The notes beneath the pieces were generated by a model, which had not been told where the DNA came from, made no database searches, and was given only the letters and a program-made list of their open reading frames with translations. Positions 10,516 through 37,973 of a stretch of 38,105 nt of DNA are shown here, one piece after another. The DNA comes from Akkermansiaceae bacterium (GTDB lineage Bacteria; Verrucomicrobiota; Verrucomicrobiia; Verrucomicrobiales; Akkermansiaceae). Location of the stretch: NCBI GenBank assembly GCA_015062055.1, contig SUVK01000022.1:1-38105 (forward strand), written 5' to 3'. The first letter of the stretch is position 1. The number at the start of each line of letters is the position of its first letter. The position numbers were made by a program, and so were the translations under genes.

Positions 10516-10558
10516 AAAATCAAAGGTGCTAACGTTTAATGCACGTTATGTCGGGGGT

Positions 10559-10587: not shown

Positions 10588-10626
10588 GCCTAAAATCGAA
10601 AATTTAAACCACAAAGATGATTTGAA

Positions 10627-11064
10627 TTAACAAGCCAGCGCCACACTACGCACCGAATCGCTGACATGTTTGAGTACCAGCCAGAGGGTATCTGCCGGCA
10701 TGAGCATGCCGTCAAAGCGGTCTGCCCACTCTACCAGCAATACGCTGCCGCTGCTCAGGTACTCATCCCACCCCATGCCGAGAGCTTCTTCTTCGCTCTT
10801 CATGCGGTAGAAGTCGAAATGCACGGCGGGCACGCGCCCATCCGCGTGCTCGTGCACGAGGGAGAATGTGGGGCTGGCTGCAGGGTTGCCGGCACCAAGC
10901 CCCTGCAAGATGCCCTGCACCAAATGCGTTTTACCGGCCCCCAAGTCGCCCACCAACCCCAGCACCTCGCCACCTTGCAAGGTAGCAGCTATTTTTTGTC
11001 CCAAGGCTACCATATCTGCCTCAGATTGCACCAAAACGGCCCCATTTTTGAAAATTTTATGCAT
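10627..11064 (-). CDS. tsaE: tRNA threonylcarbamoyladenosine biosynthesis ATPase TsaE
   Basis: Small P-loop ATPase that works with TsaB and TsaD to make t6A at position 37 of ANN-decoding tRNAs. It is 145 aa, normal for the family. Walker A GDLGAGKT is at 39-46. The family motifs NPAASPTFSLVHEH and VHFDFYRM follow, then the LVEWADR strand. The ATG at 11064 gives a normal N-terminus. It is divergent from rplU with about 110 bases between. tsaB and tsaD are not nearby. Confidence 0.94.
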   Translation of the reverse strand: MHKIFKNGAVLVQSEADMVALGQKIAATLQGGEVLGLVGDLGAGKTHLVQGILQGLGAGNPAASPTFSLVHEHADGRVPAVHFDFYRMKSEEEALGMGWDEYLSSGSVLLVEWADRFDGMLMPADTLWLVLKHVSDSVRSVALAC

Positions 11065-11101
11065 TATTTTGCAATTTTTTGAAAAATTTTTAATTTTAGA
11101 C

Positions 11102-11129
11102 TTGCCAAAAGGCTAGGCATGTATATAAT
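11102..11129 (+). promoter_or_regulatory. rplU-rpmA promoter and short structured leader
   Basis: TTGCCA (11102-11107), 16-base spacer, consensus TATAAT (11124-11129). The leader of roughly 40 bases contains a small hairpin, CCCGC-ATGA-GCGGG (11137-11150). A role for it in feedback by L21 would be inference only. Confidence 0.75.
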
Positions 11130-11174
11130 GTGCCAGCCCGCATGAGCGGGTGCAATCCTAAAATTCAGAAAATT

Positions 11175-11495
11175 ATGGCATACGCAGTTTTCACATCCGG
11201 CAGCAAGCAGTACCGAGTAACGGTAGGTGACGTGCTCACCGTAGACCGTATCTCCGGGCTGGTGAACGACGGCGAGACCACCTTCGACCAAGTTCTCTTG
11301 GTAGAGGATGGCGACGCAACGAAAGTAGGCACCCCCACGGTTGCCGGTGCAACAGTAACGGCCAAGGTTCTCGACGCAGAGGCTCGTGGCGCCAAGGGCA
11401 TCGCCTTTAAGTTCAAGCGCCGCAAGGGTTTCCACAAGAAGAAGGGTTTCCGCGCCGCTCTCACCAAGGTAGAGATTACCGCTATCAACGCCTGA
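11175..11495 (+). CDS. rplU: 50S ribosomal protein L21
   Basis: Structural 50S protein of 106 aa that binds 23S rRNA. The N-terminus MAYAVFTSGSKQYRV is the L21 signature, and the C-terminal FKRRKGFHKKKGFRA segment is the conserved basic rRNA-binding stretch. The ATG at 11175 is chosen because it gives the conserved N-terminus; the frame is open further upstream but across the promoter and leader. rpmA follows 34 bases later, the usual L21-L27 order. Confidence 0.98.
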   Translation: MAYAVFTSGSKQYRVTVGDVLTVDRISGLVNDGETTFDQVLLVEDGDATKVGTPTVAGATVTAKVLDAEARGAKGIAFKFKRRKGFHKKKGFRAALTKVEITAINA

Positions 11496-11529
11496 TTATT
11501 AACCACAAACCAATAGATTCTTACTAGTC

Positions 11530-11778
11530 ATGGCACATAAGAAAGGTCAAGGTTCCGTTCGTAACGGTCGCGATTCCCGCAGCAAGCGCCTCGGCGTGAA
11601 AAAATTCGGTGGGCAGTCCGTCATCGCCGGTAACATCATCGTACGTCAGCGTGGCACCAAGTTCCATCCCGGCAAGGGCGTGGGCATGGGTCGCGACTAC
11701 ACCATCTTCTCATTGGTTGACGGCCGCGTATTCTTCGATCGCGAGGGACGCCGCGTCAACGTAGCTCCCGAGGCATAA
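11530..11778 (+). CDS. rpmA: 50S ribosomal protein L27
   Basis: Ribosomal protein near the peptidyl-transferase centre, 82 aa. It starts [16 protein letters not shown] and continues with [11 protein letters not shown] and [12 protein letters not shown], all diagnostic. There is no N-terminal extension requiring proteolytic removal of the kind seen in Firmicutes. A strong terminator follows 31 bases after the stop. Confidence 0.98.
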
Positions 11779-14181: not shown

Positions 14182-15936
14182 GTGAGCAGTAACGTAAAAT
14201 CAGAGAATTGGAGCAGTAACCTAGGCGTGGTGCTGGCCGTAGCGGGCAGTGCCATCGGCTTCGGCAATTTCTTACGCTTTCCAGGGCTGGCAGCACAATA
14301 CGGCGGCGGGGCGTTCATGATTGCGTATTTTTGTGCCTTTTTGTTAATGGGCATACCGCTCAGCTGGGTAGAGTGGAGCATAGGACGCAAAGGCGGCAGA
14401 TTAAACGGGCACAGTGCAGCCTCTATCTTTTATCTTATCTCGCGCTCGCGGTACTGGAAGTATCTGGGGCTGGCCGGGGTAGTCATACCGTTGTGCATTG
14501 CCATGTATTACATAGCGCTGGAGGGCTGGACCCTGGGCTATGCTTGGCACACGGCCATGGGCGATTTGGATTTTAACAACTCGAAAGAATACGGCGAGTT
14601 TTTCTCTGACTTTACCGGTGCACAACAAGACGGGGCTGTATTTTTCAGCGGAGAGAGCACGTTGCTGCTCTTTTTCGGGGTAGCCCTGTTGGCTAATTTC
14701 TATTTATTGTACAAGGGGGTAAGCAAAGGTATAGAATGGTTCAGCAAAATCAGCATGCCTATATTGCTGATTACAGCTATTATTGTGCTTATCAGGGTAT
14801 TGACAATGGGCACTCCCAACGACGCCTACCCCGACCGCAACGTGAGCCAGGGGTTGGGCTATATGTGGAATCCCGATAAAGTGATTTTGGTAGACACCAC
14901 TACCATTAACGAGAATACTAACGAAGCACAGGTGCTCGATATGGTACCGGCCGGTGCCGGCCCGGCCGAGCAAGCATCCCAAATAACCCGGTTGCAAGAG
15001 CAATACCCGCAGGCCAAAATAGAGCGCCGAGAAATTTCGCTGTGGGAGGGGCTTTGCAACCCCGAGTTGTGGATTGCTGCTGCGGGGCAGATATTCTATT
15101 CACTCTCCATCGGTTACGGCATAGTGTGCACTTATGCCAGCTACGTGAAGAGAGGCAACGATATCGCCTTGGGCTCCCTCACCGCCAATGCGGCAAACGA
15201 GGTAGCAGAGGTAGGATTGGCAGGCATGATGATTATACCCGCAGCGGTTTCGCTGTTGGGGGTGGCAGCCGCGGCAGGCGCCGGCACTTTCGGGCTGGGG
15301 TTCAATGTCTTGCCACAGGTATTCAACAGCATGCCGGGCGGTGCATTTTTCGGCACTTTATTCTTCGTATTGCTGTCTATAGGCGCCATCACCAGTGCTA
15401 TCTCCATTTTGCAACCGGCCGTGGCTTATGTAGAAGAGTTTTGGAGCCTTCGGCGCGTACAAAGCGTATGCTTGGTAGCGCTTATGCTTGCGGTAGGCAC
15501 GCTGATTGTCATCTGGTATACGGGCAACGGCCTGCTGGCATTAGATACGCTTGATTTCTGGGTAGGCACCATGAGTCTTTACATTAGCTCGGCGCTCTTT
15601 TTGTTCATGTTCCGCAATGTGTGGGGTACCGCCAACGGCTTGGCAGAGCTGCGCAGCGGGGCAGCCATACCCATAGGGCGCAACATAGCTATTCTCATCA
15701 ATTGGGTGACCCCCTGCATTATGATTATCATCTTCGGTTCATGGGTCTTCCAAAATCTTTTCGTGAAACAAAGCCGGCACATCACCAATATCATCGAGGG
15801 CAAAGCCGGTGCCATCTTCCCGTTGGTGTGGGTGGTATTGGTTACGCTCTTCTTCTGTTTCATTGCCCGCACCTCTCGCCGATTCAAACACGGCGAAAAT
15901 CTGGAGACCAAATACGACCGCGAACCCTTCTCGTAA
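14182..15936 (+). CDS. Sodium-dependent NSS (SLC6-type) transporter, copy 1
   Basis: LeuT-fold Na+-coupled amino-acid-type symporter, 584 aa. The N-terminus WSSNLGVVLAVAGSAIGFGN followed by FLRFPGLAAQYGGGAF is the NSS TM1 signature with its unwound substrate/Na+ region. About 11-12 membrane helices follow, with TM6 region residues in the FYSLSIGYGIVCTYASY stretch. The GTG start at 14182 fits the promoter. It is followed 6 bases later by a close paralogue, so the two are tandem duplicates that have diverged mainly in the large loop around residues 240-290. The substrate cannot be read from sequence. Confidence 0.92.
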   Translation: MSSNVKSENWSSNLGVVLAVAGSAIGFGNFLRFPGLAAQYGGGAFMIAYFCAFLLMGIPLSWVEWSIGRKGGRLNGHSAASIFYLISRSRYWKYLGLAGVVIPLCIAMYYIALEGWTLGYAWHTAMGDLDFNNSKEYGEFFSDFTGAQQDGAVFFSGESTLLLFFGVALLANFYLLYKGVSKGIEWFSKISMPILLITAIIVLIRVLTMGTPNDAYPDRNVSQGLGYMWNPDKVILVDTTTINENTNEAQVLDMVPAGAGPAEQASQITRLQEQYPQAKIERREISLWEGLCNPELWIAAAGQIFYSLSIGYGIVCTYASYVKRGNDIALGSLTANAANEVAEVGLAGMMIIPAAVSLLGVAAAAGAGTFGLGFNVLPQVFNSMPGGAFFGTLFFVLLSIGAITSAISILQPAVAYVEEFWSLRRVQSVCLVALMLAVGTLIVIWYTGNGLLALDTLDFWVGTMSLYISSALFLFMFRNVWGTANGLAELRSGAAIPIGRNIAILINWVTPCIMIIIFGSWVFQNLFVKQSRHITNIIEGKAGAIFPLVWVVLVTLFFCFIARTSRRFKHGENLETKYDREPFS

Positions 15937-15942
15937 TACCCG

Positions 15943-17643
15943 GTGTCAGAAAAACAAAAATCAGAGAGTTGGAACAGCAACCTCGGTGTCATGCTGGCCG
16001 TGGCCGGCAGCGCTGTGGGGTTCGGTAACTTTTTGCGATTTCCCGGGCTCGCGGCCCAATACGGTGGCGGGGCCTTCATGATTGCCTATTTCATTGCCTT
16101 TCTGCTGCTGGGGATTCCCATCAGCTGGGTAGAATGGAGCATAGGCCGCCGCGGCGGCTTGTTGGGAGGGCACAGCACGGCTGCCATTTTCTACCGCATC
16201 TCGGGCTCGCGCGCGTGGAAGTACTTGGGCATTGCCGGTGTACTGGCCCCCTTGACCGTGTGCATGTACTACATTTATCTGGAGGCGTGGACGCTTGGCT
16301 ACGCATGGCACACCGCCACGGGCGAGCTCAGCCTGGCCCATGCGGCACAATACGGGCAATTTTTCGATGAATACACCGGCACAGCCGGCAACGGCAGTGT
16401 ATTCACCGGGCAAACCAACACACTCATCTTTTTTGCCATTGTACTGGTACTCAATTTTTATCTTATTTATCGGGGCGTCAGCAGGGGTATAGAATGGTTC
16501 TGCAAATGGAGCATGCCCGTGCTATTGCTCACCTGCATCATTGTACTGGTACGCGTGCTGACCATAGGCACCCCCGATGCCGCCTACCCGCACCGCAACA
16601 TCAACGAGGGGCTCGGCTACATGTGGAACCCCGATAAAGTCGTGCTGGTAAATGCAGCCGATGGTCAAACGCTCGACTTGGTGCCCGCCTCTGCCACGCC
16701 CGAGCAAAAAGCGCAACAAATAACCACCCTGCAAGCAGCCAACCCCGGCATACAGATAAAAGAAAAACGCATCAGCCTGTGGCAGGGACTACTCAACCCG
16801 GATTTGTGGTTGGCAGCAGCAGGGCAAGTCTTCTTCTCGCTCTCCGTGGGGTTCGGTACCGTTTGCACCTATGCCAGTTATGTGCGGCGCAACAAAGATG
16901 TGGCCTTGGGCTCCCTTACCGCCAACATGGCCAATGCCGCCACCGAGATCGGGTTGGCCGGCATGATGGTTATACCCGCAGCCGTCGGTTTTTTGGGAGT
17001 CGCGGCAGCAGCCACCAGCAACATATTCGGGCTGGGCTTCAACACACTACCGCAAGTTTTCAACAGCATGCCCGGCGGCCAGTTCTTCGGCACGCTCTTC
17101 TTCTTCCTGCTCTTTATAGCAGCCATTACCAGCGCCATCTCGATGCTGCAACCCGGGGTAGCCTTTTTAGAAGAGTTTTGGGGGCTCAAGCGCGTGCAGA
17201 GCATATCTCTGCTCGGCTTCATCTTGGGGTGTGGCACGCTGTTGGTCATTTGGTTTACACAAGACCTGATTGCCTTAGACACGATGGATTTCTGGTTCGG
17301 CAACCTCAGTCTCTACCTCACCACCGGGCTTTATCTATATCTATTCTGCGTGGTGTGGGGCCCCCATAAAGGCTTGGCCGAGCTACGCCGCGGCTCGTGC
17401 CTGTTGCTTCCGCGCCCGGTGGCCTTCATCATCACATGGGTTACCCCTGCCCTCATGCTCACCATCTTTGTATCATGGGCCTACAAATCACTCTTCATTG
17501 AGCATAATCATCACATCGCCAATCTCATCGCCATGAAACCCGGTGCCGTCTTCCCCTTGGTATGGATTGTACTGGTAGGCCTTTTCATGGCCTTTGTTAT
17601 TCGCACTTCACCCAGTTTCCACAAAACCCATAAACCCGATTAA
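15943..17643 (+). CDS. Sodium-dependent NSS (SLC6-type) transporter, copy 2
   Basis: A 566-aa paralogue of the preceding gene with the same TM1 signature (SNLGVMLAVAGSAVGFGN) and the same FSLSVGFGTVCTYASY region. It starts at a GTG 6 bases after the stop of copy 1, so it is translated from the same mRNA. A 41-codon gene follows 6 bases after its stop and resembles the MetS small subunits that accompany some bacterial NSS carriers (MetP/MetS type), which supports a methionine/alanine-like amino-acid substrate as inference. Only one small subunit is present for two carriers. Confidence 0.92.
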   Translation: MSEKQKSESWNSNLGVMLAVAGSAVGFGNFLRFPGLAAQYGGGAFMIAYFIAFLLLGIPISWVEWSIGRRGGLLGGHSTAAIFYRISGSRAWKYLGIAGVLAPLTVCMYYIYLEAWTLGYAWHTATGELSLAHAAQYGQFFDEYTGTAGNGSVFTGQTNTLIFFAIVLVLNFYLIYRGVSRGIEWFCKWSMPVLLLTCIIVLVRVLTIGTPDAAYPHRNINEGLGYMWNPDKVVLVNAADGQTLDLVPASATPEQKAQQITTLQAANPGIQIKEKRISLWQGLLNPDLWLAAAGQVFFSLSVGFGTVCTYASYVRRNKDVALGSLTANMANAATEIGLAGMMVIPAAVGFLGVAAAATSNIFGLGFNTLPQVFNSMPGGQFFGTLFFFLLFIAAITSAISMLQPGVAFLEEFWGLKRVQSISLLGFILGCGTLLVIWFTQDLIALDTMDFWFGNLSLYLTTGLYLYLFCVVWGPHKGLAELRRGSCLLLPRPVAFIITWVTPALMLTIFVSWAYKSLFIEHNHHIANLIAMKPGAVFPLVWIVLVGLFMAFVIRTSPSFHKTHKPD

Positions 17644-25766: not shown

Positions 25767-27845
25767 ATGTATATTAACCGAGAGATATCGTGGCTGGAGT
25801 TCAACCAACGGGTGCTGGATCAAGCATACCGTCGCGAACTGCCACTCTTGGAGCGTGTCAAATTTTTATCTATCAGCGCCAGCAATTTGGACGAGTTTTT
25901 CCAGGTACGCGTAGGCGGGTTGATGCTGTTGCGCCAAAGTGGCAAGAAAGCAGCCGACCGCACGGGCTTGGCCCCCACAGAGCAGCTGGAAATGATACGC
26001 ATGAGGGCATCGGGTATGGTGGCCGACCAATACATGTTGATGAACCGAGAGCTCATGCCGCTGATGCAACAGGCGGGTATAAGCCCACTGCCCATCAAAG
26101 AGTTAACAGAGACGCAATACGCCGCACTTGAAGAACACTTTCTCGACAACATAGCCCCGCTGCTTACCCCGCTTGCCATGGAGGTAGAGCGCCCGCCGCT
26201 GTTGCCCAACCTGCACATTATCCTGGCACTGGAGCTGCGCGAGCCCGACAGTGAAGCTACCCGCATGGTAACGGTAGTATTGCCCGAGACTCTGCCGCGC
26301 CGCGTGCACTCTGCCGCCCTTGGGCGAGACGGCTATGTGCTGTTGGAGGATTTGGTGAGCGAGTTTATAGGGCACTTATTCCCGGAGGAGCCCATTGTCA
26401 ACCGCAGTCTTTTTCGAGTAACCCGCAACGGCGACATAGCCGTGGCCGAAGAAGAAGGGGGCGATTTTGCACAAGAGATGGAGGCCGTGCTGGTAGCACG
26501 CAAATTCTCCGACTGCGTGCGTTTGGAGCTACCGGCAGATACGCCTACAGAGTTTGCGCGCCGTATAGCCGACATGGTAGGAGCAGATGAGTTTTGCACC
26601 TACCCGGTGCATGGGGCTTTGCAGTTGGTAGACTTCGGGCGCTTGGCGTACGACCCCGGCAACGAGCATCTGAAGATGGATGCGTGGACCCCCGTCCCCC
26701 CCGCTGCGGTAGACCCCACGCTGAGCATGTTCGACAACATCGCCCAGGGGGATATATTGATACACAATCCCTTCGAGAGCTACGAGCCCGTTGTTCGCTT
26801 TGTAGAAGAGGCTGCAAAAGACCCGGATGTACTGGCCATCAAACAAGTACTCTACCGCACCGCTCGCAACTCGCGCTTTGTGGCCGCCCTGTGCCGCGCA
26901 GCAGAGGCCGGCAAGCAAGTAACCGTACTGGTCGAGCTGAAAGCCCGTTTCGACGAAAGCCGCAATCTCATGCAGGCAGAGCAACTGCAAAAAGCCGGCG
27001 TGCAGGTTGTATACGGTGTTAAAGGCTTTAAAACACACGCCAAAATCACCTTGGTAGTACGCCGAGAAAACGGCGTCTTGCGCCGATATTGCCATTTTGG
27101 CACCGGCAACTACAACGAAACCACCGCAGCGCTGTACAGCGACCTCAACCTGCTTACGAGCAACGAACAATTGGGGGCCGATGCCTCACAATTTTTCAAC
27201 TCCATAACCGGGTTGACCAAGCTGATGAAGTTTCGCCGTCTCTTCCCGAGCCCGGGTATGATGAAAAAGCGTTTGCTCGAGCTGATAAATGCCGAGACCG
27301 AGCGGGCCCGCCGTGGCGAACCCGCCCGCATACAAGCCAAGATGAACTCCCTGAATGACAAGGAAGTAATGAACGCGCTGGAGAAAGCGTCTCAAGCCGG
27401 GGTACGCATCAACCTGAATGTGCGCGGCATTTGCTGCTGGACCCCCGACACCCCGCAAGGGCAAGTGCGCACACGCATTATCAGCATTATCGACCGCTAC
27501 TTGGAGCACGCGCGCATCTTCTGCTTCGGCAATGGCGGTAGCCCGTTGGTATACATAGCCAGTGCAGACTGGATGAGCCGCAACCTCGACCGCCGTGTTG
27601 AGCTGATGATACCCATCGAAAACCGAGATATCGCCGAGCGAATACAAGGCATACTCGAGGCATGTTTTAACGACACGGCGCAAGCCTACGTGGTACGCCC
27701 CGACGGCACATCGATTCAAGTAACCCCTGCAGCCCGCACCAAACCCTTTGCCATGCAGCAACACCTGCAAGAGCTTGCCCAGCAATCCGTACGCACCCGC
27801 GAACACGAAGCCAGACAAACCCTGGAGCCCCACAGACCCAAGTAA
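25767..27845 (+). CDS. ppk: Polyphosphate kinase 1
   Basis: Makes inorganic polyphosphate from ATP. At 692 aa it is full length. The N-domain opens INREISWLEFNQRVL, followed by ISASNLDEFFQVRVGGL. The head domain and two PLD-like catalytic domains follow. The autophosphorylated His is in the segment GFKTHAKITLVVRRENG, followed by YCHFGTGNYNETTA. The second catalytic His region is replaced in its usual place by GNGGSPLVYIASADWMSRNLDRRVE (quoted in part), as in other PPK1. No exopolyphosphatase gene is adjacent. It directly precedes the RiPP locus but has its own promoter. Confidence 0.97.
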   Translation: MYINREISWLEFNQRVLDQAYRRELPLLERVKFLSISASNLDEFFQVRVGGLMLLRQSGKKAADRTGLAPTEQLEMIRMRASGMVADQYMLMNRELMPLMQQAGISPLPIKELTETQYAALEEHFLDNIAPLLTPLAMEVERPPLLPNLHIILALELREPDSEATRMVTVVLPETLPRRVHSAALGRDGYVLLEDLVSEFIGHLFPEEPIVNRSLFRVTRNGDIAVAEEEGGDFAQEMEAVLVARKFSDCVRLELPADTPTEFARRIADMVGADEFCTYPVHGALQLVDFGRLAYDPGNEHLKMDAWTPVPPAAVDPTLSMFDNIAQGDILIHNPFESYEPVVRFVEEAAKDPDVLAIKQVLYRTARNSRFVAALCRAAEAGKQVTVLVELKARFDESRNLMQAEQLQKAGVQVVYGVKGFKTHAKITLVVRRENGVLRRYCHFGTGNYNETTAALYSDLNLLTSNEQLGADASQFFNSITGLTKLMKFRRLFPSPGMMKKRLLELINAETERARRGEPARIQAKMNSLNDKEVMNALEKASQAGVRINLNVRGICCWTPDTPQGQVRTRIISIIDRYLEHARIFCFGNGGSPLVYIASADWMSRNLDRRVELMIPIENRDIAERIQGILEACFNDTAQAYVVRPDGTSIQVTPAARTKPFAMQQHLQELAQQSVRTREHEARQTLEPHRPK

Positions 27846-28219
27846 TACCGCCGCAGAAAGAGGCTTTGGTATAACTGCTCTTCGCAGTGAATCTGCACAT
27901 CATACGCTCTCTACCATAGCAGCCCATGTGTTGATATCTCCCTCGGCCATACCGCATTTTCCTTGGCCTAGGTATCAAACAGCCCATTCATTGTCACAAT
28001 TTTTTCTATCCCAACATCAGCGTAAGTCGCTTACTTTTAATTTGTCTACCTCGGCGTAGCCCAAAGATTTGGAACACGTATGCAATATTCTGAAAAGGTA
28101 CCTATTTTTTACTTGACAAAACACCAAATTGTGATAGAAAAAAATTCCCGTTGGGCAAGCAGATATAAACATTTGTTTGCTTTAGTATGCAAAAATCAAA
28201 CTAAAACATTATATATACC
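27846..28219 (+). other. Region upstream of the first precursor peptide
   Basis: Holds no convincing gene until the precursor. From about 28055 to 28219 it is homologous to 28715-28879, the upstream region of the third precursor, including the promoter at 28113-28140. Confidence 0.6.
28113..28140 (+). promoter_or_regulatory. Promoter of precursor gene 1
   Basis: TTGACA (28113-28118), 16-base spacer ending in TGTGA, TAGAAA (28135-28140). The leader is about 73 bases, unlike the leaderless genes in this window. Confidence 0.7.
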
Positions 28220-28312
28220 ATGCTTACTCCGATTGTTACAACGAGTTCTGCTCAGGTTGAAGGTGGCTGCTGCGACTGCTTCTCCATGCGCTGCGCTTGC
28301 GATTACCAATAA
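28220..28312 (+). CDS. RiPP precursor peptide 1 (Cys-rich, 30 aa)
   Basis: Thirty residues: a short leader-like part, MLTPIVTTSSAQVEGG, then the Cys-rich part CCDCFSMRCACDYQ (Cys17, 18, 20, 25, 27). The same size and Cys spacing occur in two neighbouring genes, with three radical SAM/SPASM maturases alongside, which is the standard arrangement of a radical-SAM-modified RiPP. Conserved non-Cys positions are Gly16, Asp19, Phe21, Met23, Tyr29 and Gln30. There is no Lys anywhere. It has its own promoter, 80 bases upstream. The GG before the first Cys may mark leader cleavage. Mature structure unknown. Confidence 0.85.
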   Translation: MLTPIVTTSSAQVEGGCCDCFSMRCACDYQ

Positions 28313-28325
28313 ATCCTCTAATCAC

Positions 28326-28418
28326 ATGATTACGGGCATCTTAACAGTATCACAAGAATATCAAGATTCAGGGTGTTGTGATTGCTTCACTATGGGATGC
28401 ACATGCAACTATCAATGA
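28326..28418 (+). CDS. RiPP precursor peptide 2 (divergent, 30 aa)
   Basis: Thirty residues, MITGILTVSQEYQDSG then CCDCFTMGCTCNYQ. The leader differs from precursors 1 and 3 almost throughout, but the Cys positions (17, 18, 20, 25, 27), Asp19, Phe21, Met23, Tyr29 and Gln30 are the same. It starts 14 bases after the stop of precursor 1 and shares its mRNA and the terminator at 28436. The contrast of a free leader and a fixed core argues that the core is under selection. Confidence 0.85.
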   Translation: MITGILTVSQEYQDSGCCDCFTMGCTCNYQ

Positions 28419-28435
28419 ATCCATTGGATAAACCG

Positions 28436-28465
28436 GCGAGGCTTTCAGAGCCTCGCTGTTTTTCC
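28436..28465 (+). terminator. Terminator after precursors 1 and 2
   Basis: GCGAGGC (28436-28442), 7-base loop, GCCTCGC (28450-28456), then TGTTTTTCC. Homologous to the terminator at 28990. Confidence 0.88.
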
Positions 28466-28773
28466 TTGTTCATATACCCGGGAAGTTCTAAAAAAGGCGA
28501 GTCTGTTTCAGATAAGCCGGTGCTCCCCTACCCTACCTATGACAAAAAAGTAGCAATCCGGACTTGCCTGCCTTTGTAACACTCGTTACAAAGAGATGAT
28601 GATAAAATAAATATTTAGGCAAGAAGGCAGGACTGACACCAGCACAATTGTCCACCAAAATCGCAGCGAGGTCACGCTTTCATTTGACACTTTTTCAAAT
28701 TTTTACGCATATAGGCTATCATTTACAAAATCTTTGGGACACATGAGTCTATTCAAACGCACCTATTTTTTAC
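28466..28773 (+). other. Spacer between precursor cassettes with a structured element
   Basis: No gene seen. At 28563-28623 a closing stem CTTGCCT/AGGCAAG encloses a perfect 9-bp hairpin, CTTTGTAAC (28572-28580) with GTTACAAAG (28585-28593), loop ACTC. From about 28715 the sequence is homologous to the region before precursor 1. Confidence 0.5.
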
Positions 28774-28801
28774 TTGACAAAATACTACGTTATGATAGAA
28801 G
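28774..28801 (+). promoter_or_regulatory. Promoter of precursor gene 3
   Basis: TTGACA (28774-28779), 16-base spacer ending in TATGA, TAGAAG (28796-28801). Same architecture as the promoter of precursor 1. Confidence 0.7.
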
Positions 28802-28879
28802 AATTCATGTTGAGTTATGCGGAATATAACATCTGCATGCTTTAATATTCAAATATAAACCCATAACATTATCTATACC

Positions 28880-28972
28880 ATGCTTACTCCGATTATTGCA
28901 ACGAGTTCTGCTCAGGTTGAGGGTGGCTGCTGCGACTGCTTCTCCATGCCCTGCGCTTGCTATTATCAATAA
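28880..28972 (+). CDS. RiPP precursor peptide 3 (30 aa)
   Basis: Differs from precursor 1 at only four residues: Val6 to Ile, Thr7 to Ala, Arg24 to Pro and Asp28 to Tyr, giving the core CCDCFSMPCACYYQ. All five Cys and the Asp, Phe, Met, Tyr and Gln anchors are kept. The two variable core positions (24 and 28) also vary in precursor 2 (Gly and Asn), so they appear to be the free positions of the scaffold. It has its own promoter and its own terminator, ahead of the maturase operon. Confidence 0.85.
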   Translation: MLTPIIATSSAQVEGGCCDCFSMPCACYYQ

Positions 28973-28989
28973 ATCCCTATACATAACCT

Positions 28990-29020
28990 GCGAGGCTGAT
29001 AAGGCCTCGCTATTTTTTCC
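28990..29020 (+). terminator. Terminator between precursor 3 and the maturase operon
   Basis: GCGAGGC (28990-28996), 7-base loop, GCCTCGC (29004-29010), then TATTTTTTCC. No clear promoter follows before 29076, so the maturase genes are probably expressed by read-through, giving much more precursor than enzyme. Confidence 0.88.
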
Positions 29021-29075
29021 TAATCACATACCACTCTCTCAGAAGCACGATGGTTGCAAACTTTAGCAACTTTAT

Positions 29076-30446
29076 ATGAATACTCTTGCAGAAAAAGGAA
29101 TTTTCTTTATACCGGCCGGTAGTGAATTCGGGTTGGCAAATAACAAGGCTGTTTACATCGTATACGCACCATTGTCCGGGCGTTCATTCCTGATAACGGG
29201 CAGCGAAAAAGGAAACATAGAGCAAAAGCTACTCTCTCTGTCTGACAGTGCTGATACAGACAACGACCCCTTGCGAGCTATGTTTGCAGAAGAGCAACGT
29301 CGGCAATGGCTTCAATTCCGCATCGCTCCGGAGGATTGTCTCAATCTGACCATTCTCCCCAACCACCGCTGCAATTTCCGGTGCACCTATTGTTATTCAG
29401 CCGGCGGGCGGTCTAATGCAGAGCTGAACAGCACACAAATAACAGCTCTTGCCACTTGGGCACTTCAACATTGTGCGAAAAAAAACAAACCCTGTCGCAT
29501 CCTGTTTTTGGGAGGAGGCGAACCTCTCTTATCGTGGGAAACCATGCGTGAGAGCATTTTACAAATAGAAGAACGCAGCAAAGAACTCGGTGCCACATTA
29601 GACTTTTCCGTCAGCACCAACGGCTCTCTCCTCACAGCAGAAAAAATAGATTTTTTACGAAACCACAAAGTACGAGTGCAAGTATCTTTCGAAGTATTGG
29701 AAGATGTACAAAACGAGCAACGTGGACATTATGATTTGGTACATAACAATATATGTATCGCTCTTGCAGAGGGATTAAATCCGGGCATACACTCCGTCAT
29801 CACAGAAACAAACATTGACCGGATGGAAGAAGTGGTACACACGGCGCATAAGCAATACCCCAATTTGAAAAAACTGGGCCTTGAACCCGTAGTAGACGCA
29901 GAACTGTTGAATACCCCCGCAAAAGCCGCCGATTTCTACCAACGCTTCTACGATGGTTATATCAAAGCGGAAAAGCTTTGCCAAGAATATGGCATAGAAT
30001 TACTTACAGCGTGCAGCAAAGCATTGGAAACTGTACGCACCCACTACTGCGCGGGCCAAATTACACTGACCCCCTTGGGCACATTCTCCTCTTGCGAAGC
30101 TATCAGTAATCCTAAAGAAAACGGCTACCAAGAAGCCATTTTCGGCAAACTGAACGAAGAGGGGCAACCGGAGTTTGACCTGCAGAGCTTCCGACGCTAC
30201 CACCCGGCAGAGCCCGGCTTCATGCGTGACAAGTGCAGCACATGCTGGGCGCGTTGGAACTGCGGTGGCGGCTGTAACTACAAGCGTAACACGCTGTCTG
30301 AAGACGTATTTGATGAGTATTGCAAATTAAACTGCAAACTCATGGAGCATTTTTTGGCCAACAAATTACGCCGTGAGTTTTCCCTAGCCACCCCCGGCGC
30401 AGATTTGGATGCCGTGGTAGCCAACACCTTATCTCAAAACCAATAA
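29076..30446 (+). CDS. Radical SAM/SPASM peptide maturase 1
   Basis: A 456-aa peptide-modifying radical SAM enzyme. The N-terminal 80 residues contain FIPAGSEFG and VYIVYAPLSGRSFL, shared with the other two SPASM enzymes here and a likely peptide-recognition region. The radical SAM core has Cys99, Cys103 and Cys106 (CNFRCTYC) and the GGGEP motif at 146-150. The SPASM domain is complete: Cys325-x9-Gly-x4-Cys340, then Cys387-x2-Cys390-x5-Cys396-x3-Cys400, then Cys416 and Cys420, enough for two auxiliary Fe-S clusters. Enzymes of this type make thioether or other Cys-centred crosslinks. First gene of the operon; the next starts 4 bases later. Confidence 0.93.
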   Translation: MNTLAEKGIFFIPAGSEFGLANNKAVYIVYAPLSGRSFLITGSEKGNIEQKLLSLSDSADTDNDPLRAMFAEEQRRQWLQFRIAPEDCLNLTILPNHRCNFRCTYCYSAGGRSNAELNSTQITALATWALQHCAKKNKPCRILFLGGGEPLLSWETMRESILQIEERSKELGATLDFSVSTNGSLLTAEKIDFLRNHKVRVQVSFEVLEDVQNEQRGHYDLVHNNICIALAEGLNPGIHSVITETNIDRMEEVVHTAHKQYPNLKKLGLEPVVDAELLNTPAKAADFYQRFYDGYIKAEKLCQEYGIELLTACSKALETVRTHYCAGQITLTPLGTFSSCEAISNPKENGYQEAIFGKLNEEGQPEFDLQSFRRYHPAEPGFMRDKCSTCWARWNCGGGCNYKRNTLSEDVFDEYCKLNCKLMEHFLANKLRREFSLATPGADLDAVVANTLSQNQ

Positions 30447-30450
30447 AAGT

Positions 30451-31803
30451 ATGAGTAACAACATTTTTCCCAGGCCGGAGGCATACGCTATCCCCGTCGG
30501 CGAATATTTCGGATGCAATAAAACAGATGTCTTCATAGCGTACGCACCGCTATACGGAGCGTATGGCTTGATGAATGCAACAGAAGCACAGCAACTGCAG
30601 GCCATTCTCAACGACACGGCACCCACCTCAGAGCACGAGTTTCTGACAGCTCTGAAAGGTTGCCCCAAATTGGCGCAGCTTCCCGCCCCGAAAACACCGG
30701 ATGATATCTGGGAGGTAGATTTGTTGCTTAACAATATTTGCAATTTTCACTGCTCATATTGTTACTCTGCCGCCGGTAGGTCCAACAAGCGTATGCCCGA
30801 ATCGGCTTGGCGCAAAACCGTAGACTATCTTTTTGAACAAGAACGCAAAAACAAACTACCGGTACGCATTCATTTCTCCGGTGGCGGAGAACCGCTCATC
30901 AGCTTCTCAGAAATTCAGAAAGTTGTTGCGTATATAGAGAAAAAGCATGCCGAGAGCGGGCGACCATATTCATTGGGAATCGTCTCTAACGGTAGCCTGC
31001 TGACAGATGAAATCATTGAGTATATACGAGACAAAAAAATAGATCTTGTCATCTCCTTTGAGGTACTACCCGAGCTGCAAAATCGAGAAAGAGGCGCCTA
31101 CGACAAAGTAAAGGCAAATTTGGCAAGGTTGCATGAGCTGAATTGCCCGTTCGGCATACGCTCTCCACTGACGGAAGATGCCTTACCACTGCTGCCGACC
31201 ATGCTCGAGGCCCTGAAGAGTGAGTATCCCTACATAACCTCACTCACCGTAGAGCCTGTACACTCACCGGAATGGTACGGCACCCCGGAGAAACTCAAGA
31301 GTTATTTCGACCTATTTTACGAGGTATATACCAAAGCATACGAGCAGGCAGAGAAGTTGGGCATTTTCTTGGGCAGCAACACATTCTCTCAACTCAAATA
31401 CCGTCGAAAAGCAAAATGCATGTGCAAAATGGTCGTAACGGCAGAGGGCACAATCTCGTACTGCGCACGTGTTGCGGCCTCTACAGAACCGCTCTACGAC
31501 CGTTTTATATACGGCACCTGCCTTACAAGCGCAAACGCCCCGACGTTTGATGCCGAGAAGTTCGCCGAAATTAACCGGCACAACATAGAAGAACAACCGC
31601 AATGCCGCCAATGTTTTGCACGCTGGAACTGCGGTGGAGATTGCAGTCTGTTCCACCAAACATATGCGGCAGAATGTTATGCGGTATCCTGCAATTTTAC
31701 CCGAAAATGTTTGATATGGGAAATACTGCTCTGCATACGCAAGGCATTTGAAAAACAGTATCCGGGTAAGAATTTTGAGCAGCATGTGCGAGACTCGGTC
31801 TGA
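30451..31803 (+). CDS. Radical SAM/SPASM peptide maturase 2
   Basis: A 450-aa relative of maturase 1 with the same plan. The N-terminal recognition-like block is AYAIPVGEYFG then VFIAYAPLYGAYGL. The radical SAM core has Cys97, Cys101 and Cys104 (CNFHCSYC) and SGGGEPL. In the SPASM domain, CMCKMVVTAEGTISYC fits C-x9-G-x4-C only from the first Cys, so one extra Cys lies inside the motif. CRQCFARWNCGGDC keeps C-x2-C-x5-C-x3-C, with later Cys in AECYAVSC. The sequence is well diverged from maturases 1 and 3, so it probably performs a different step. Its 3' end overlaps the formyltransferase start by 20 bases. Confidence 0.93.
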   Translation: MSNNIFPRPEAYAIPVGEYFGCNKTDVFIAYAPLYGAYGLMNATEAQQLQAILNDTAPTSEHEFLTALKGCPKLAQLPAPKTPDDIWEVDLLLNNICNFHCSYCYSAAGRSNKRMPESAWRKTVDYLFEQERKNKLPVRIHFSGGGEPLISFSEIQKVVAYIEKKHAESGRPYSLGIVSNGSLLTDEIIEYIRDKKIDLVISFEVLPELQNRERGAYDKVKANLARLHELNCPFGIRSPLTEDALPLLPTMLEALKSEYPYITSLTVEPVHSPEWYGTPEKLKSYFDLFYEVYTKAYEQAEKLGIFLGSNTFSQLKYRRKAKCMCKMVVTAEGTISYCARVAASTEPLYDRFIYGTCLTSANAPTFDAEKFAEINRHNIEEQPQCRQCFARWNCGGDCSLFHQTYAAECYAVSCNFTRKCLIWEILLCIRKAFEKQYPGKNFEQHVRDSV

Positions 31804-32329
31804 GAAAAAATGTGTTCTGTTTACTAACCGCTATAGCGAGCTGATACCGGCACTGGCCCGAGCAACTCGCTTACAGTGCATAGTACACCCCACTGAGCCA
31901 AGGGAACAGGTAGCCACACTGAAAGAACTATGCCCAAACAGTACAGTCATGCAGTGCTACACCCCGAGCACGGCAAGTAACGTAGCTCGAGAACTGCACA
32001 ACATGGCCCCGGATTTGCTTATTACATATGCTTTCCAGCATATCTTACCTGCATATTATGCAGACATATGCCCCGGCATCAATCTACACCCCAGTCTTTT
32101 GCCGGCCTACCCGGGACTCAACCCATGGCAGGAGCAAATGAGGGATGGTGTAAAACAGGGTGGTTACACCATACACCGCCTGACACAGCAGGTAGATGCC
32201 GGAGAAATTTTAGACAGCGTCACCTTTACTTGGCCTATCCCCACTCCCTCACTGGCAAAGCTGAGAGAGAGCACGCTTTTGCAGTATGGGATTCCGCTTT
32301 TACTTAACCTGTTAAAAAAAACGATATAA
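31784..32329 (+). CDS. Formyltransferase-fold enzyme in the RiPP operon
   Basis: A 181-aa protein with the catalytic half of GART/Fmt-type N10-formyltetrahydrofolate formyltransferases. It has the diagnostic GINLHPSLLPAYPG (Asn and His of the N-H-D triad) and VDAGEILD (the Asp), with GGYTIHRL between them. The N-terminal strand KKCVLFTNRYSEL replaces the usual GNGSN-type nucleotide loop, so it is not a standard PurN. The start at 31784 overlaps maturase 2 by 20 bases and is the most likely of several ATGs; the one at 31748 would overlap by 56. Its place in the operon suggests it formylates the peptide or a tailoring intermediate. Confidence 0.8.
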   Translation: MCETRSEKKCVLFTNRYSELIPALARATRLQCIVHPTEPREQVATLKELCPNSTVMQCYTPSTASNVARELHNMAPDLLITYAFQHILPAYYADICPGINLHPSLLPAYPGLNPWQEQMRDGVKQGGYTIHRLTQQVDAGEILDSVTFTWPIPTPSLAKLRESTLLQYGIPLLLNLLKKTI

Positions 32330-32344
32330 TATATAATTTCTGAC

Positions 32345-33727
32345 ATGCTCCCTCCCCACATTCTCTTTGTCATACCAACATACGCAATGTACCCCAGGGG
32401 CATCTACGTGATGCCTCTGGGTATACTGTATGTCTCTGCCGCAGCACGCGCAGCCGGAGAAAACGTAGACTGCATCAACTTGAACCATGAAACGGGAGAT
32501 GTCCTCGCCGCCCTATCTCAAAAAATTCTCCGGACCGGGTGCACCATGGTAGCGCTGGGTGGACTTTCCGGTGAATATCAGGATTTGTACAACGTGTTGC
32601 GCCATGTGAAACAAAATCACCCGCATATCACCACAATAGTGGGAGGAGGAATTATAACCGCAACTCCGAAAATTGCCATGCAAGCGTTGGAATACGCAGA
32701 TATTGGTATCATAGGAGAGGGAGATGAAACCATAGTAGAGCTCATGCAAACGATTCGCCGCGGTGACAGCATAAGCAGCGTGGCCGGAATCATTTACAAG
32801 CATAACAATGAATGGGTAAAAACGAAAAACAGACAAGACGTACAAGATTTGGATTCCCTACCACTACCGGATTACGAGGGATTCGACTTTGCGCATTATC
32901 TTGCAACTAACAACATGGGGTACGGAAACCAAGGAGAAGCGCTTTCACCGGTCAATATCGTAGGCAGTCGTTCTTGTCCCCACATGTGCACATTCTGTTT
33001 TCACCCCTCCGGGCGTACCTACCGAGAGCGCAGTCTGAACTCCGTTTTCGCAGAAATTGATTATCTGCTTGCCACCTACCCCGGAATTAACCACATTGCC
33101 ATGAGAGAAGAGCTGTTTGCCTCTCGGCCGGAACGCATACAAGAGTTCTGCCGTAGAATTTCAGAATATAGTCTATACTGGAGTATTCAACTGAGAGTAG
33201 ATAACGTTTCAACCACAGTGCTGGAGGAACTCAGTAACGCCGGGTGTTTTGCTGTATTCTTGGGAACAGAAAGCATGGATGACAACGTGCTGCGCAGCAT
33301 GAACAAAAAAGTAACGGCTGAACAATCTCAAAAAGCATTAAAAATGGCTGCACGAGCCGGAGTTCCCATACGTACCGGACTCATATTCGGAGATAAAGCC
33401 GAAACCCGAGAAAGCTATCAACGCACATTGAAATGGTACCATCAGCAAAATGCGTACAATTCAATACAAAAACGCCCGTTGATTACGGTAGACATGCTTA
33501 TCCCCTTCCCCGGTTCCCCCATCTACGCATATGCATGCCGCAAGGGTATCATAACAGACGAGGTAGAATACTTGCGCATGGGCTGTCCTCTTGTAAACCT
33601 GACACAAATGCCGGAAGAAGATTTTCTGGACATGATGCAAAGTATACAAGCCATCAATGGCAGAACCTACCAATACTTAAGCGGTAATACGCTGAGAGAG
33701 ATTCCGCCTCCCGCACGAGAACCATAA
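32345..33727 (+). CDS. B12-binding-domain radical SAM enzyme
   Basis: A 460-aa class B (cobalamin-dependent) radical SAM protein. The N-terminal Rossmann-like B12-binding domain (about residues 5-140) shows MPLGILYVSAAARAAG, VALGGLSGEY and IIGEGDETIVEL and lacks a DxHxxG base-off motif, as is usual for BchE-like enzymes. The radical SAM core has Cys211, Cys215 and Cys218 in SCPHMCTFCFHPSGR, followed by the RVDNV and FLGTESM segments. Such enzymes often methylate unactivated carbons, including in RiPPs. Start 15 bases after the formyltransferase stop. Two TATAAT-like strings overlap that junction (the second 7 bases before the ATG) but lack a good -35. Confidence 0.88.
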   Translation: MLPPHILFVIPTYAMYPRGIYVMPLGILYVSAAARAAGENVDCINLNHETGDVLAALSQKILRTGCTMVALGGLSGEYQDLYNVLRHVKQNHPHITTIVGGGIITATPKIAMQALEYADIGIIGEGDETIVELMQTIRRGDSISSVAGIIYKHNNEWVKTKNRQDVQDLDSLPLPDYEGFDFAHYLATNNMGYGNQGEALSPVNIVGSRSCPHMCTFCFHPSGRTYRERSLNSVFAEIDYLLATYPGINHIAMREELFASRPERIQEFCRRISEYSLYWSIQLRVDNVSTTVLEELSNAGCFAVFLGTESMDDNVLRSMNKKVTAEQSQKALKMAARAGVPIRTGLIFGDKAETRESYQRTLKWYHQQNAYNSIQKRPLITVDMLIPFPGSPIYAYACRKGIITDEVEYLRMGCPLVNLTQMPEEDFLDMMQSIQAINGRTYQYLSGNTLREIPPPAREP

Positions 33728-33750
33728 GGCGACGCACGAGAAACCCGCCT

Positions 33751-35106
33751 TCAGGCTTTCTTTGCTACCGCGTCAAAAGGGTCCGGCATGCCCATTTTCT
33801 TACCAAAAGAGCGAATACGACTCACCAAGGTATAGAGCAGCAACTTACGTGTAAAATTACAATACTGAGCAAACACCTCATCACCGAGTTGTTCTCTTCT
33901 ATAGCGACAGCCACCGCCACAATTCCATTTAGCCCAGCACTCATTACAATTCTGAGGCAAGTTACACCCCGTAGGTGGATAGAGAGTGGCAAAAGCATCC
34001 GCAAACACCTCTACACGCCCCTCGTTAAGAGCCCCATAAAGGTAATGTTCAAATCTACCGTCTTCTTCGTCGCTTTCAAACTCGCAGGAAGAAATAAGGC
34101 CCTTGGGGGTAAGAACAGCCTGAGGTCCGCAAAAATGGGTACGCAACATATCGGCGCTACCGTAGTCTGTACATGTAACACTCAAACCATGCGCAGCTGC
34201 CTCCTCTACAGCACGGGTAAAGCCATCGTAAAACAGGCGGTAAAAAGACTCTGCCGCTGCGGGCGAGTTCAAGTAATCGGTATCGACTACCGGCTCTAAA
34301 CGCAAATGACGAACCGATGGATAATGCTGCAGAGTCAGCCGGACCATCTCACTCATTCGCTGTAAATTCAGAGAGGTAATGACAGCTCTTAACGCAAAAG
34401 GCACGCCCAGTTCTTGCATTCTCAGCAAGTTTCCATGCACACGCGCATACTGGCCTCTCTGTGCGTCTTGTATCTCGGGTATCACCTCAAAAGATACTTG
34501 CACATCTACTTTGTAACGTTTAAAAAACTCGATATGCGTATCCGTTATCAGGGAACCATTGGTTATCACAACAAAACCCAAGTTAACAAGTTGAGACTCA
34601 GCCTGCTTAGCCATATTCTCAATACAACGCGAAATAGTTTGCCAAGAAAGCAAAGGTTCTCCACCACCTATAAACGCTACCGTCAACGCGATACCGGGTT
34701 GACGTTCCACCTTAAAAAACCAATCGAACGCAGCCATAATTTGCTCATAGCTCAACTCGGCCTTGTTGCGACCGCGTGCAGAATAGCAATAGGAGCACGA
34801 AAAATTACAACGCTGGTTAGCTAACACGCATAAGCGACGCACTTGCGATATACCTACCTGTCTTTTCATCATGGCGGATTTCTTCTCAGGCGCAAACAAA
34901 ATCCGCAACGGTTCATCTTCAGGAGCCCGTCCTTCCACAACAGCGTCCAATCGAGTCTTAACCTCTTGAACAGAATTGCGATCACACATCAGGCTCTGCC
35001 CTGTTAATGGAGAATAAACAAGCCACAATGCATCATCTGCCACACCTGCTAATTCACCGGCAGGCACCATGAAAACCTCATCAGTCCGTATCACTTCGCT
35101 GTTCAT
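33751..35106 (-). CDS. Radical SAM/SPASM peptide maturase 3 (opposite strand)
   Basis: A 451-aa relative of maturases 1 and 2, clearly closest to maturase 1. The N-terminal block is VFMVPAGELAG then LWLVYSPLTGQSLM. The radical SAM core is CNFSCSYCYSARGRNKAEL with GGGEPLLSW. The SPASM domain is intact: Cys-x9-Gly-x4-Cys in FCGPQAVLTPKGLISSC, and Cys-x2-Cys-x5-Cys-x3-Cys in CNECWAKWNCGGGC, with a final Cys in QYCNF. The start at 35106 is fixed by a promoter 7 bases upstream; the ATG at 35115 overlaps that -10. It converges on the operon (24 bases between stops), so it is regulated separately. Confidence 0.93.
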   Translation of the reverse strand: MNSEVIRTDEVFMVPAGELAGVADDALWLVYSPLTGQSLMCDRNSVQEVKTRLDAVVEGRAPEDEPLRILFAPEKKSAMMKRQVGISQVRRLCVLANQRCNFSCSYCYSARGRNKAELSYEQIMAAFDWFFKVERQPGIALTVAFIGGGEPLLSWQTISRCIENMAKQAESQLVNLGFVVITNGSLITDTHIEFFKRYKVDVQVSFEVIPEIQDAQRGQYARVHGNLLRMQELGVPFALRAVITSLNLQRMSEMVRLTLQHYPSVRHLRLEPVVDTDYLNSPAAAESFYRLFYDGFTRAVEEAAAHGLSVTCTDYGSADMLRTHFCGPQAVLTPKGLISSCEFESDEEDGRFEHYLYGALNEGRVEVFADAFATLYPPTGCNLPQNCNECWAKWNCGGGCRYRREQLGDEVFAQYCNFTRKLLLYTLVSRIRSFGKKMGMPDPFDAVAKKA

Positions 35107-35112
35107 TGCTCT

Positions 35113-35140
35113 CATTCTACCAAAAAATAAATTTGCGGCA
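35113..35140 (-). promoter_or_regulatory. Promoter of maturase 3, leaderless
   Basis: Minus strand TTGCCG, 16-base spacer, TAGAAT, then 7 bases (GAGAGCA) to the ATG at 35106. Confidence 0.75.
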
Positions 35141-36527: not shown

Positions 36528-36860
36528 TAAGTACAAGGTACAAAGTAATGATATGGCTTTACAGGGTTTAAAGGCCGGAACAAGCAGTTTGCCCTTCGCA
36601 TTATAAACGTGTGCCACGCCCTTTCAAAAATCGGTGGTGGTGCGGAAGTGTTGGGGTAACAACTGCTGCGTTCAGGCACGTCTGTCGGGGCCAATTATTG
36701 TGTGGCAAAAATTGCGAAAAGTGACAAAGATTTCCTGAATAAGCTTAAAATTTCAGAGGAAGAAGCTCGCGAGTTAACGGCCATATTAACAGCCTCCATT
36801 AAGACCCACAAAAGCAACCATCTTAAAATTAACACCGTTAACTTTGTACTTCGTACTTTA
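36528..36860. repeat. Inverted terminal sequences bracketing a decayed gene
   Basis: AAGTACAAGGTACAAAGTAA at about 36530-36549 recurs inverted as TTAACTTTGTACTTCGTACT at about 36838-36857. The enclosed 330 bases hold the remnant described next. Such GTAC-rich sequences often accompany four-helix-bundle genes; here they mark the unit ends. Confidence 0.65.
36556..36832 (+). pseudogene. Remnant of a four-helix-bundle (23S intervening-sequence/S23-type) protein gene
   Basis: In one frame the sequence reads FKGRNKQFALRIINVCHALS, then AEVLG, an in-frame TAA, and QLLRSGTSVGANYCVAKIAK followed by SDKDFLNKLKIS and EEARELTAILTASIKTHKS. QLLRSGTSVGAN, the DF.NKL segment and the ELTAI..ASIKT end are diagnostic of the four-helix-bundle family. 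No start codon remains, there is a stop inside, and the family's middle section between KLKIS and EEARELTAI is missing (about 35 residues), so the gene is dead. The frame runs on into the M42 peptidase gene, which makes a false 62-residue extension of that protein. Confidence 0.8.
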
Positions 36861-36887
36861 AACTTCACCCTTCATCCATCCACCATC

Positions 36888-37973
36888 ATGATTACAGAAG
36901 AAGCACTCGACTTTTTATCCACCTTATTAGATACCCCCTCCCCCACCGGTATGGAGATGGACGCCCAGCGTCTTTGGGCAGAGTACATGAAGCCCTATAC
37001 CGATGAGCAACAATGCGATGCCTACGGCTCTACTTGGGCCGTTCTCAAAAGCAAGCAGGCCAACGCCCCCACCCTCATGCTCGATGCCCACGCCGACGAA
37101 ATCGGCTTCTCGATACGCCACATCGGGAGCGATGGCTTTGTGTATGTAGAACGACTCGGCGGCTCGGATGTTGCCATTGCTCGCGGCCGCCGCCTGCGAT
37201 TCTTCGGTACCGACGGCGAGGTAACCGGCGTTATCGGCAACACCGCCATCCATATACGAGACGACCAAGACAAAGCCCCCAAACTGTGGGAGCTGTACGT
37301 AGATTTCGGGTGCGACAGCCGCGAAGAGGTAGAAGCCCTCGGCCTGCGTGTGGGCGACCGCGGTGTATACTGTGATGGCCCCCTCATGCTCAACAACGGC
37401 AAGCGCTTGGTATGCCGCGCCTTGGATGACCGCCTTTGTGGCTTCATCTTGGCCGAAACCGCGCGCCGCCTTAAGGAGCAAGGCGTAGAACCGGCTTGGA
37501 ACATTGTATTTGCCAACACCGTGCAAGAAGAAGTTGGCTGCATAGGTGCTGCCATGCTTACCTACCGCATACAGCCCGATGCTGCCATCTGCCTGGATGT
37601 TACGCACGCCACCGACAGTCCCGGGCTCAACACGGCCCGCTACGGCGAGGTAAAACTGGGCAAGGGCGGCTGTCTTTGCTTCGGCCCCGCCTGCCACCCC
37701 AACCTCAATGCCCGCATTGAGTATGTGGTAGACAAAACCGGCATCCCCATGCAGCGAGAGACCAGTGGGCGCACCACAGGCACCAATACAGACCAAATCT
37801 TCCGCTCCCGCAGCGGTGTACCTGCTACCAATTTCTCGCTGCCCCTGCGCTACATGCACAGCCCTGTAGAAACAGCTGACATGGCAGATGTGGAGAACAT
37901 GATTGACCTGTTGGTCGCCTTTATTGAAGAGCTGAAGGTAACGGACGATTTCCGCCACAAACTGGAACTCTGA
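36888..37973 (+). CDS. M42 family metallo-aminopeptidase
   Basis: Di-zinc aminopeptidase, often a glutamyl aminopeptidase/endoglucanase-type fold, 361 aa. It starts MITEEALDFLSTLLDTPSPTG. The metal ligands are visible: His in LDAHADEIGF, Asp in RALDDRLCG, the catalytic Glu pair in VQEEVGCIGA, Asp in CLDVTHATDSPG, and His in RYMHSPVE. The ATG at 36888 is chosen because residues upstream belong to the four-helix-bundle remnant. Cytoplasmic, no signal peptide. It is followed by 24 bases and then a reading frame from the opposite strand. Confidence 0.92.
   Translation: MITEEALDFLSTLLDTPSPTGMEMDAQRLWAEYMKPYTDEQQCDAYGSTWAVLKSKQANAPTLMLDAHADEIGFSIRHIGSDGFVYVERLGGSDVAIARGRRLRFFGTDGEVTGVIGNTAIHIRDDQDKAPKLWELYVDFGCDSREEVEALGLRVGDRGVYCDGPLMLNNGKRLVCRALDDRLCGFILAETARRLKEQGVEPAWNIVFANTVQEEVGCIGAAMLTYRIQPDAAICLDVTHATDSPGLNTARYGEVKLGKGGCLCFGPACHPNLNARIEYVVDKTGIPMQRETSGRTTGTNTDQIFRSRSGVPATNFSLPLRYMHSPVETADMADVENMIDLLVAFIEELKVTDDFRHKLEL

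Follow-up and report, generated by a model that had tools for sequence, protein, structure and literature searches.

The window analysed here, a stretch of 38,105 nucleotides (nt) from an Akkermansiaceae bacterium (GCA_015062055.1, contig SUVK01000022.1, positions 1 to 38,105), carries a gene cluster for what is probably a ribosomally synthesised and post-translationally modified peptide (RiPP). On the + strand the cluster consists, in this order, of three 30-codon precursor genes, two genes for radical S-adenosylmethionine (SAM) maturases with a SPASM domain (A and B), a formyltransferase gene and the gene of a B12-binding radical SAM enzyme, and a third SPASM gene (C) converges on it from the - strand. 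This is the gene set named in the original prediction, which had been made from the letters of the window, and each member lies at the position given there. Precursor genes 1 (28220-28312, MLTPIVTTSSAQVEGGCCDCFSMRCACDYQ) and 2 (28326-28418, MITGILTVSQEYQDSGCCDCFTMGCTCNYQ) are followed by a terminator-like hairpin at 28434-28458, and precursor gene 3 (28880-28972, MLTPIIATSSAQVEGGCCDCFSMPCACYYQ) by another at 28990-29010, all on the + strand. Each precursor is a 30-amino-acid (aa) open reading frame (ORF) with the core motif; gene 1 has homologues in relatives, the ATG of gene 2 lies inside a longer mechanical ORF, and gene 3 is a duplicate of gene 1, the two being 89% identical over 149 nt with a 49-nt upstream box conserved at 84%. 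Three terminator-like sites were found in 27840-29200 against 1.1 expected from shuffles, and promoter-like sites in the region show no excess (4 against 3.7 in shuffles). Maturase A (29076-30446, +, 456 aa) has an N-terminal domain alignable to the one in CteB, a radical SAM domain and a 7-Cys SPASM motif. The gene of maturase B (30451-31803, +, 450 aa) is overlapped at its 3' end by the start of the formyltransferase gene (31784-32329, +), the product of which has the Formyl_trans_N fold (PF00551, E 2e-19). The B12-binding radical SAM enzyme, a predicted C-methyltransferase (32345-33727, +, 460 aa), matches both PF02310 and PF04055 above their cut-offs and thus combines a B12-binding domain with a radical SAM core, and maturase C (33751-35115, -, 454 aa) completes the set.

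A protein search with the B12 enzyme gave 1025 matches (7995 candidates scored), and a scan of species genomes with it returned 54 loci. The 24 that are counted as family (L013-L034, L036 and L055) encode a B12 enzyme of 43% identity or more, next to family SPASM genes or the formyltransferase; adding the window and L110, a contig of IMG/VR, gives 26 clusters. Three of the family loci come from Akkermansia metagenome-assembled genomes, 20 are labelled Bacteroidales and one is labelled Lachnospiraceae, the last grouping within Bacteroidales in the B12 tree and hence possibly misbinned. Allowing for contig ends, all clusters have in common a precursor, at least two SPASM genes, the B12 radical SAM enzyme and the formyltransferase, such that three kinds of peptide-modifying enzyme co-occur with the precursor as is expected of a RiPP locus. 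The other 30 loci of the scan (L035, L037-L054 and L056-L066) were rejected as members: the precursor motif is found in none, most encode long B12 enzymes of about 540-870 aa, no family SPASM match exceeds 54.3 bits and the only formyltransferase is one far match (L057). In the case of L037, with a B12 enzyme of 43% identity, the part examined upstream of the B12 gene was just 0.6 kb.

The distribution of the family is sporadic. Of 76 genomes in the window's genus, probably Akkermansia, four including its own encode the B12 enzyme, and the cluster is therefore an accessory trait; in the order of L019 the enzyme occurs in 1/393 genomes, which is that of the query itself. A search of the phylum matched 5/288 genomes at E <= 1e-60, two of them members of Akkermansia (again including the window's own), and the other three contain 37-42% homologues in frames of 578-631 codons, with no SPASM or formyltransferase gene in the short loci examined. 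A plasmid search with maturase A gave two matches at 24-25% identity. Nine of the 24 family loci are labelled with ruminant gut or rumen sources.

The precursors of the window share a CCDCFxxxCxC core, and the identical Cys spacing first noticed in them (CCxCxxxxCxC, then one residue and Tyr-Gln) holds for all three. A gene of 28-35 codons encoding [G/D]CCDx[F/S]...CxC was found in 22/22 clusters in which the 5' end could be read, the window included; in the remaining four the contig ends inside the cluster (L026, L027, L029) or the upstream part was not fetched (L110). Conserved homologues beside maturases in related genomes, on which the original prediction had staked itself, thus exist. The Akkermansia cores read GCCDCFxMxCxCxYQ or GCCDV[F/S]...CxCNYQ, type I cores of Bacteroidales read GCCDVFGYGCxCACNNS (with the variants GCCDAFGYGCKCTCQTS in L023 and GCCDCFSMTCSCDCR in L030) and type II cores [G/D]CCDCFGGGCRC[N/K][D/H]. 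A six-frame search of 111 partly overlapping loci, 1.10 Mb in all, with the motif xCCDxx(2-9)CxC, itself derived from the precursors, matched only the precursors and one chance ORF (L032:17297), and a degenerate GCCDxF pattern in the window's own genome recovered the three precursors and one ORF lacking CxC. Pooled over related pairs, core differences number 18 nonsynonymous against 149 synonymous, for a ratio of nonsynonymous to synonymous change (pN/pS) of 0.03; that of the leader is 0.15. These values are uncorrected, with synonymous sites near saturation and with pairs that overlap in ancestry and are not independent. Purifying selection on the core is strong, and the clusters encode a selected precursor with a leader and a core.

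At the level of databases the peptides are barely seen. The three of the window match no Pfam or NCBIfam model, and when one of them (as a 43-aa ORF) was compared with 5.8 billion proteins, a single relative came back; the peptides are so short that annotation all but misses the family, in spite of the more than 1000 homologues of its B12 enzyme. A Bacteroidales precursor compared with 301 genomes of L019's family gave 22 matches at E <= 0.1, of which two are convincing (the genome of L022 at E 2e-15 and that of L019 itself at 1e-12) and 20 lie at E >= 0.002.

The SPASM maturases share CxxxCxxC and the columns of the 7-Cys SPASM motif, which are invariant in 27/27 aligned proteins including those of the window. 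As judged from their sequences, the enzymes of the window have intact cluster-binding and catalytic motifs. The predicted model of maturase A has CteB and TigE as its closest folds and aligns to CteB (5why 1-448) over residues 6-432 in a whole-chain alignment, N-terminal domain included. In a tree of 60 SPASM proteins (one of which, L055_6200, has no CxxxCxxC) maturase B groups with the second maturase of the Bacteroidales clusters, and maturase C, which is 37% identical to A, is the sister of the Akkermansia maturase A. The set of three SPASM enzymes that had been put forward applies to the window and does not extend to the family as a whole, since the number in relatives is two, three, five or six. 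Five or six paralogues beside a single precursor of 28-30 aa (L031, L034, L036 and others) make an unusually dense maturase set. Four type II clusters also contain a membrane-protein-like gene, f3, among their SPASM genes (L020:3521-5347, L025:3314-5413, L031:5596-7620 and L034:6740-7462), which is 600-700 aa long (240 aa open in L034) and in L031 has an RCK potassium-channel-like domain (PF22614). In L030 the third SPASM gene (10344-11696) is of another lineage, is closest to ScmE/NirJ2 models at scores below cut-off, and sits 3' of the B12 gene in the position held by the M42 peptidase in many other loci.

The formyltransferase is present in 23/24 family loci and in L110; in the exception, L016, the cluster is cut off by the end of the contig. 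Fusion to the B12 enzyme is seen twice, in the distinct proteins P0038 and P0095, of which P0095 is 99.8% identical to its counterpart in L023. N99, H101 and D137 (aligned-row numbering; Asn-x-His plus Asp), which we take to be the catalytic residues, are invariant in 14/14 sequences, and the profile matches include ArnA at E 4e-23. The twelve nearest structural neighbours of the B12 enzyme model are entries of AprD4, MgmA, OxsB, CysS, TsrM and TokK. An M42 aminopeptidase is co-encoded in 15/21 Bacteroidales-type loci and in L110, and in 0/4 Akkermansia clusters.

The number of SPASM genes goes together with the third core cysteine. All 12 clusters with exactly two SPASM genes (L014-L019, L021-L023, L028, L032 and L033) encode a CCDV or CCDA core, and all 10 with three or more encode a CCDC core: three SPASM genes in the window, L013 and L030, five in L020, L024, L025, L036 and L055, and six in L031 and L034 (Fisher p 1.5e-6, ignoring kinship). 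L055 is counted as five by motif, a sixth protein lacking CxxxCxxC, the first ORF of L025, with its two radical SAM motifs, enters the count as two, and for L020, L025 and L031 the upstream sequence was taken from L094, L095 and L098. Among the four Akkermansia clusters maturase C occurs only in the two with third-Cys cores. On the B12 tree the third-Cys state changes four times, of which at least three are forced by supported branches, and since the third SPASM of L030 belongs to another lineage the pairing must have arisen more than once. No third family SPASM was detected genome-wide at E <= 1e-40 in the CCDV genomes G193 and G124. The short contigs of L016, L018, L022, L023 and L028 could hide further SPASM genes past their ends. 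The pairing of CCDV/A cores with two maturases and of CCDC cores with three to six suggests that the extra maturases act on the third cysteine, and with this natural gain or loss of a cysteine together with a maturase the long-standing question of which radical SAM enzyme makes which bond becomes directly testable with natural variants.

Taken together, the cluster probably encodes precursors that are crosslinked at Cys by the SPASM enzymes and then likely methylated by the B12 enzyme and likely N-formylated. The core would be multiply modified, as the original prediction had it, with putative crosslink, methyl and formyl sites. In the proposed pathway a leader of about 16 residues (MLT..V/I...) would bind to the N-terminal domain of the SPASM enzymes, and maturases A and B would each close one Cys thioether crosslink among the cysteines common to all intact cores. 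The third Cys would be the target of maturase C or, in other clusters, of the additional SPASM enzymes, and it is seen only where these exist. The crosslinked, leader-bound peptide would next be methylated by the B12 enzyme at an unactivated carbon, after which the leader would be cleaved off. The co-encoded M42 aminopeptidase is the probable agent of this step in many Bacteroidales clusters, and in Akkermansia it would be a protease from another locus. Finally the formyltransferase would cap the freed N-terminal amine using 10-formyl-tetrahydrofolate. Counted from the first core Cys, Lys is absent from 13/15 distinct cores, and so the N-terminus would be the natural formyl acceptor if cleavage takes place at the start of the core.

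Several observations weigh against this pathway or narrow it. Lys is found in the core of three loci and also in the leader of type II precursors, and the cleavage site is assumed; a longer type II product would contain additional amines. At the top of the structural matches of the B12 enzyme, the methylase MgmA and the dehydratase AprD4 are level in Z, such that methylation is predicted rather than proven, and the product and its mass shifts are likewise predictions from genes. Rings of the PapB type, made on Cys-X3-Asp, were rejected for most cores as Cys-X3-Asp/Glu is absent in 13/15 distinct cores including the three of the window, and occurs once in each of two type II cores. Nor is there a strict code of one enzyme per cysteine, because type I Bacteroidales cores have five Cys in clusters with two SPASM enzymes. 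The three independent supported pairs on the tree are all concordant (3/3), which is too few for significance (sign test p 0.25), and in type II and L025 the whole cassette may have moved. A second precursor of L013, from a goat-caecum Akkermansia (L013:5505-5597, AGYCVCFTANYSCNYQ), breaks the pattern: it reads YCVCFTANYSC, with Tyr at the positions of core Cys 1 and Cys 4 and the Asp lost too, and has ACG where precursor 2 of the window has its start ATG. It may be a decaying copy, or the lost Cys 1 and Cys 4 may be partners. Export is also unexplained because clustering of the ORFs, in which not all flanking genes were annotated, showed no transporter family common to at least three loci.

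The fate of the product bears on this last point. It is possible, though we hold it to be on the unlikely side, that the peptide is an intracellular cofactor or metal ligand comparable to pyrroloquinoline quinone or mycofactocin, an aminopeptidase-trimmed and capped Cys cage that stays in the cell. The missing transporter family, the co-encoded M42 aminopeptidase and the extreme conservation of the core would all agree with such a role, and the last contrasts with bacteriocins, which evolve fast; however, no client enzyme recurs beside the clusters and the sporadic distribution in genus and order is unlike that of a housekeeping cofactor. The same distribution, together with the duplicated precursors and the ruminant sources, fits a fitness factor, and a narrow-spectrum antimicrobial or signalling peptide of gut bacteria, of the sactipeptide or ranthipeptide type and with its exporter encoded elsewhere, is a doubtful but conceivable product to which the nearest SPASM folds, CteB and TigE, also point. 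Here it is the almost invariant core across phyla that is hard to accommodate, as is the lack of a recognised exporter or immunity gene, none of which recurs in at least three loci. That the peptides are simply Cys-rich metal binders, unmodified or lightly modified, with radical SAM enzymes that act elsewhere, is very improbable: CCxC and CxC could hold metal without modification, but the precursor lies beside maturases in every cluster with a readable 5' end and its third Cys tracks the number of maturases. The reading as a crosslinked, methylated and formylated RiPP can be widened, tentatively and with rather more doubt than confidence, to a new class common to Verrucomicrobiota and Bacteroidota, where an added core Cys comes with a dedicated SPASM paralogue and the product is a polycyclic, C-methylated N-formyl peptide, possibly a cofactor of gut anaerobes. 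If true, the number of maturases would write the ring pattern, and the capping enzyme would work alongside a B12 radical SAM enzyme or as one protein with it.

Elsewhere in the window, an M42 peptidase gene (36702-37973) was rejected as a member of the system, as it adjoins purD in 8/18 purD loci (its own included), five of the eight in genomes without the B12 enzyme. A check for an empty site between ppk and purD found ppk absent from the 1.5 kb beside purD in relatives. At 39-1370 lies a gene for a 443-aa protein that is HlyD-like as judged by eye, the N-terminus of which repeats HVHGEGCSHNHADHATEE, and next comes a large RND efflux pump-like gene (1384-4545, 1053 aa), perhaps for metal export. 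Two neighbouring look-alike genes (14182-15936 and 15943-17643) resemble sodium:neurotransmitter symporters and, also by eye, look like a tandem duplication.

The view that no described class has this enzyme set and core accords with the literature searches, which returned no paper describing such a cluster, and with NCBIfam, in which none of the five enzymes reaches the cut-off among the families listed (the best 25 for four of them); the same applies, among the families listed, to the enzymes of the relatives. No formyltransferase dedicated to the last step of a radical SAM RiPP turned up in the literature consulted, which left aside some papers that pair 'N-formylated' with RiPP. By term counts, the main text of a survey of Bacteroidales RiPPs does not mention formyl, B12, cobalamin or M42 (PMC10352776). 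The closest known systems are the ranthipeptides or SCIFF peptides, such as thermocellin (CteA-CteB) and freyrasin (PapA-PapB), from which the present family differs in its precursors of 28-35 aa, in the absence of a Pfam or NCBIfam match to those of the window, and in having two to six SPASM paralogues together with a B12 radical SAM enzyme and a formyltransferase. According to the excerpt of its description available, PapB strictly requires a Cys-X3-Asp motif (PMC8172795), whereas most cores of the present family lack Cys-X3-Asp/Glu, and the maturases score far under the relevant cut-offs (115 bits against 340 for PapB with maturase B, and 88.5 against 425 for SCIFF with maturase A). ApyD of the aminopyruvatide pathway (NF050148; also TIGR03975) is another B12-binding radical SAM enzyme that belongs to a RiPP system and is matched at E 4e-36, but at 124.5 bits against a cut-off of 750, with 460 aa here against a profile of 645 positions and with a formyltransferase as partner here. 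MgmA, a glutamine C-methylase, acts on a protein, methyl-coenzyme M reductase, and its model (TIGR04014) is matched at 86.5 bits against 360. The Formyl_trans_N domain is shared with linear gramicidin synthetase (profile E 1e-18), where it formylates the N-terminal residue of a peptide as part of the loading module of a nonribosomal peptide synthetase, whereas here it stands alone or is fused to the B12 radical SAM enzyme. Discodermin (dsc, 'Entotheonella') resembles the cluster in pairing a formyltransferase domain, predicted to belong to the loading step, with a B12-dependent radical SAM enzyme, DscE, for which methylation of the peptide was tested; in the part of that report available, dsc is nonribosomal and has neither a precursor gene nor a SPASM set (PMC12858407). 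The clusters apparently represent a real and undescribed RiPP family, in which the kinds of enzyme are known and the precursor family and the enzyme set appear to be new.

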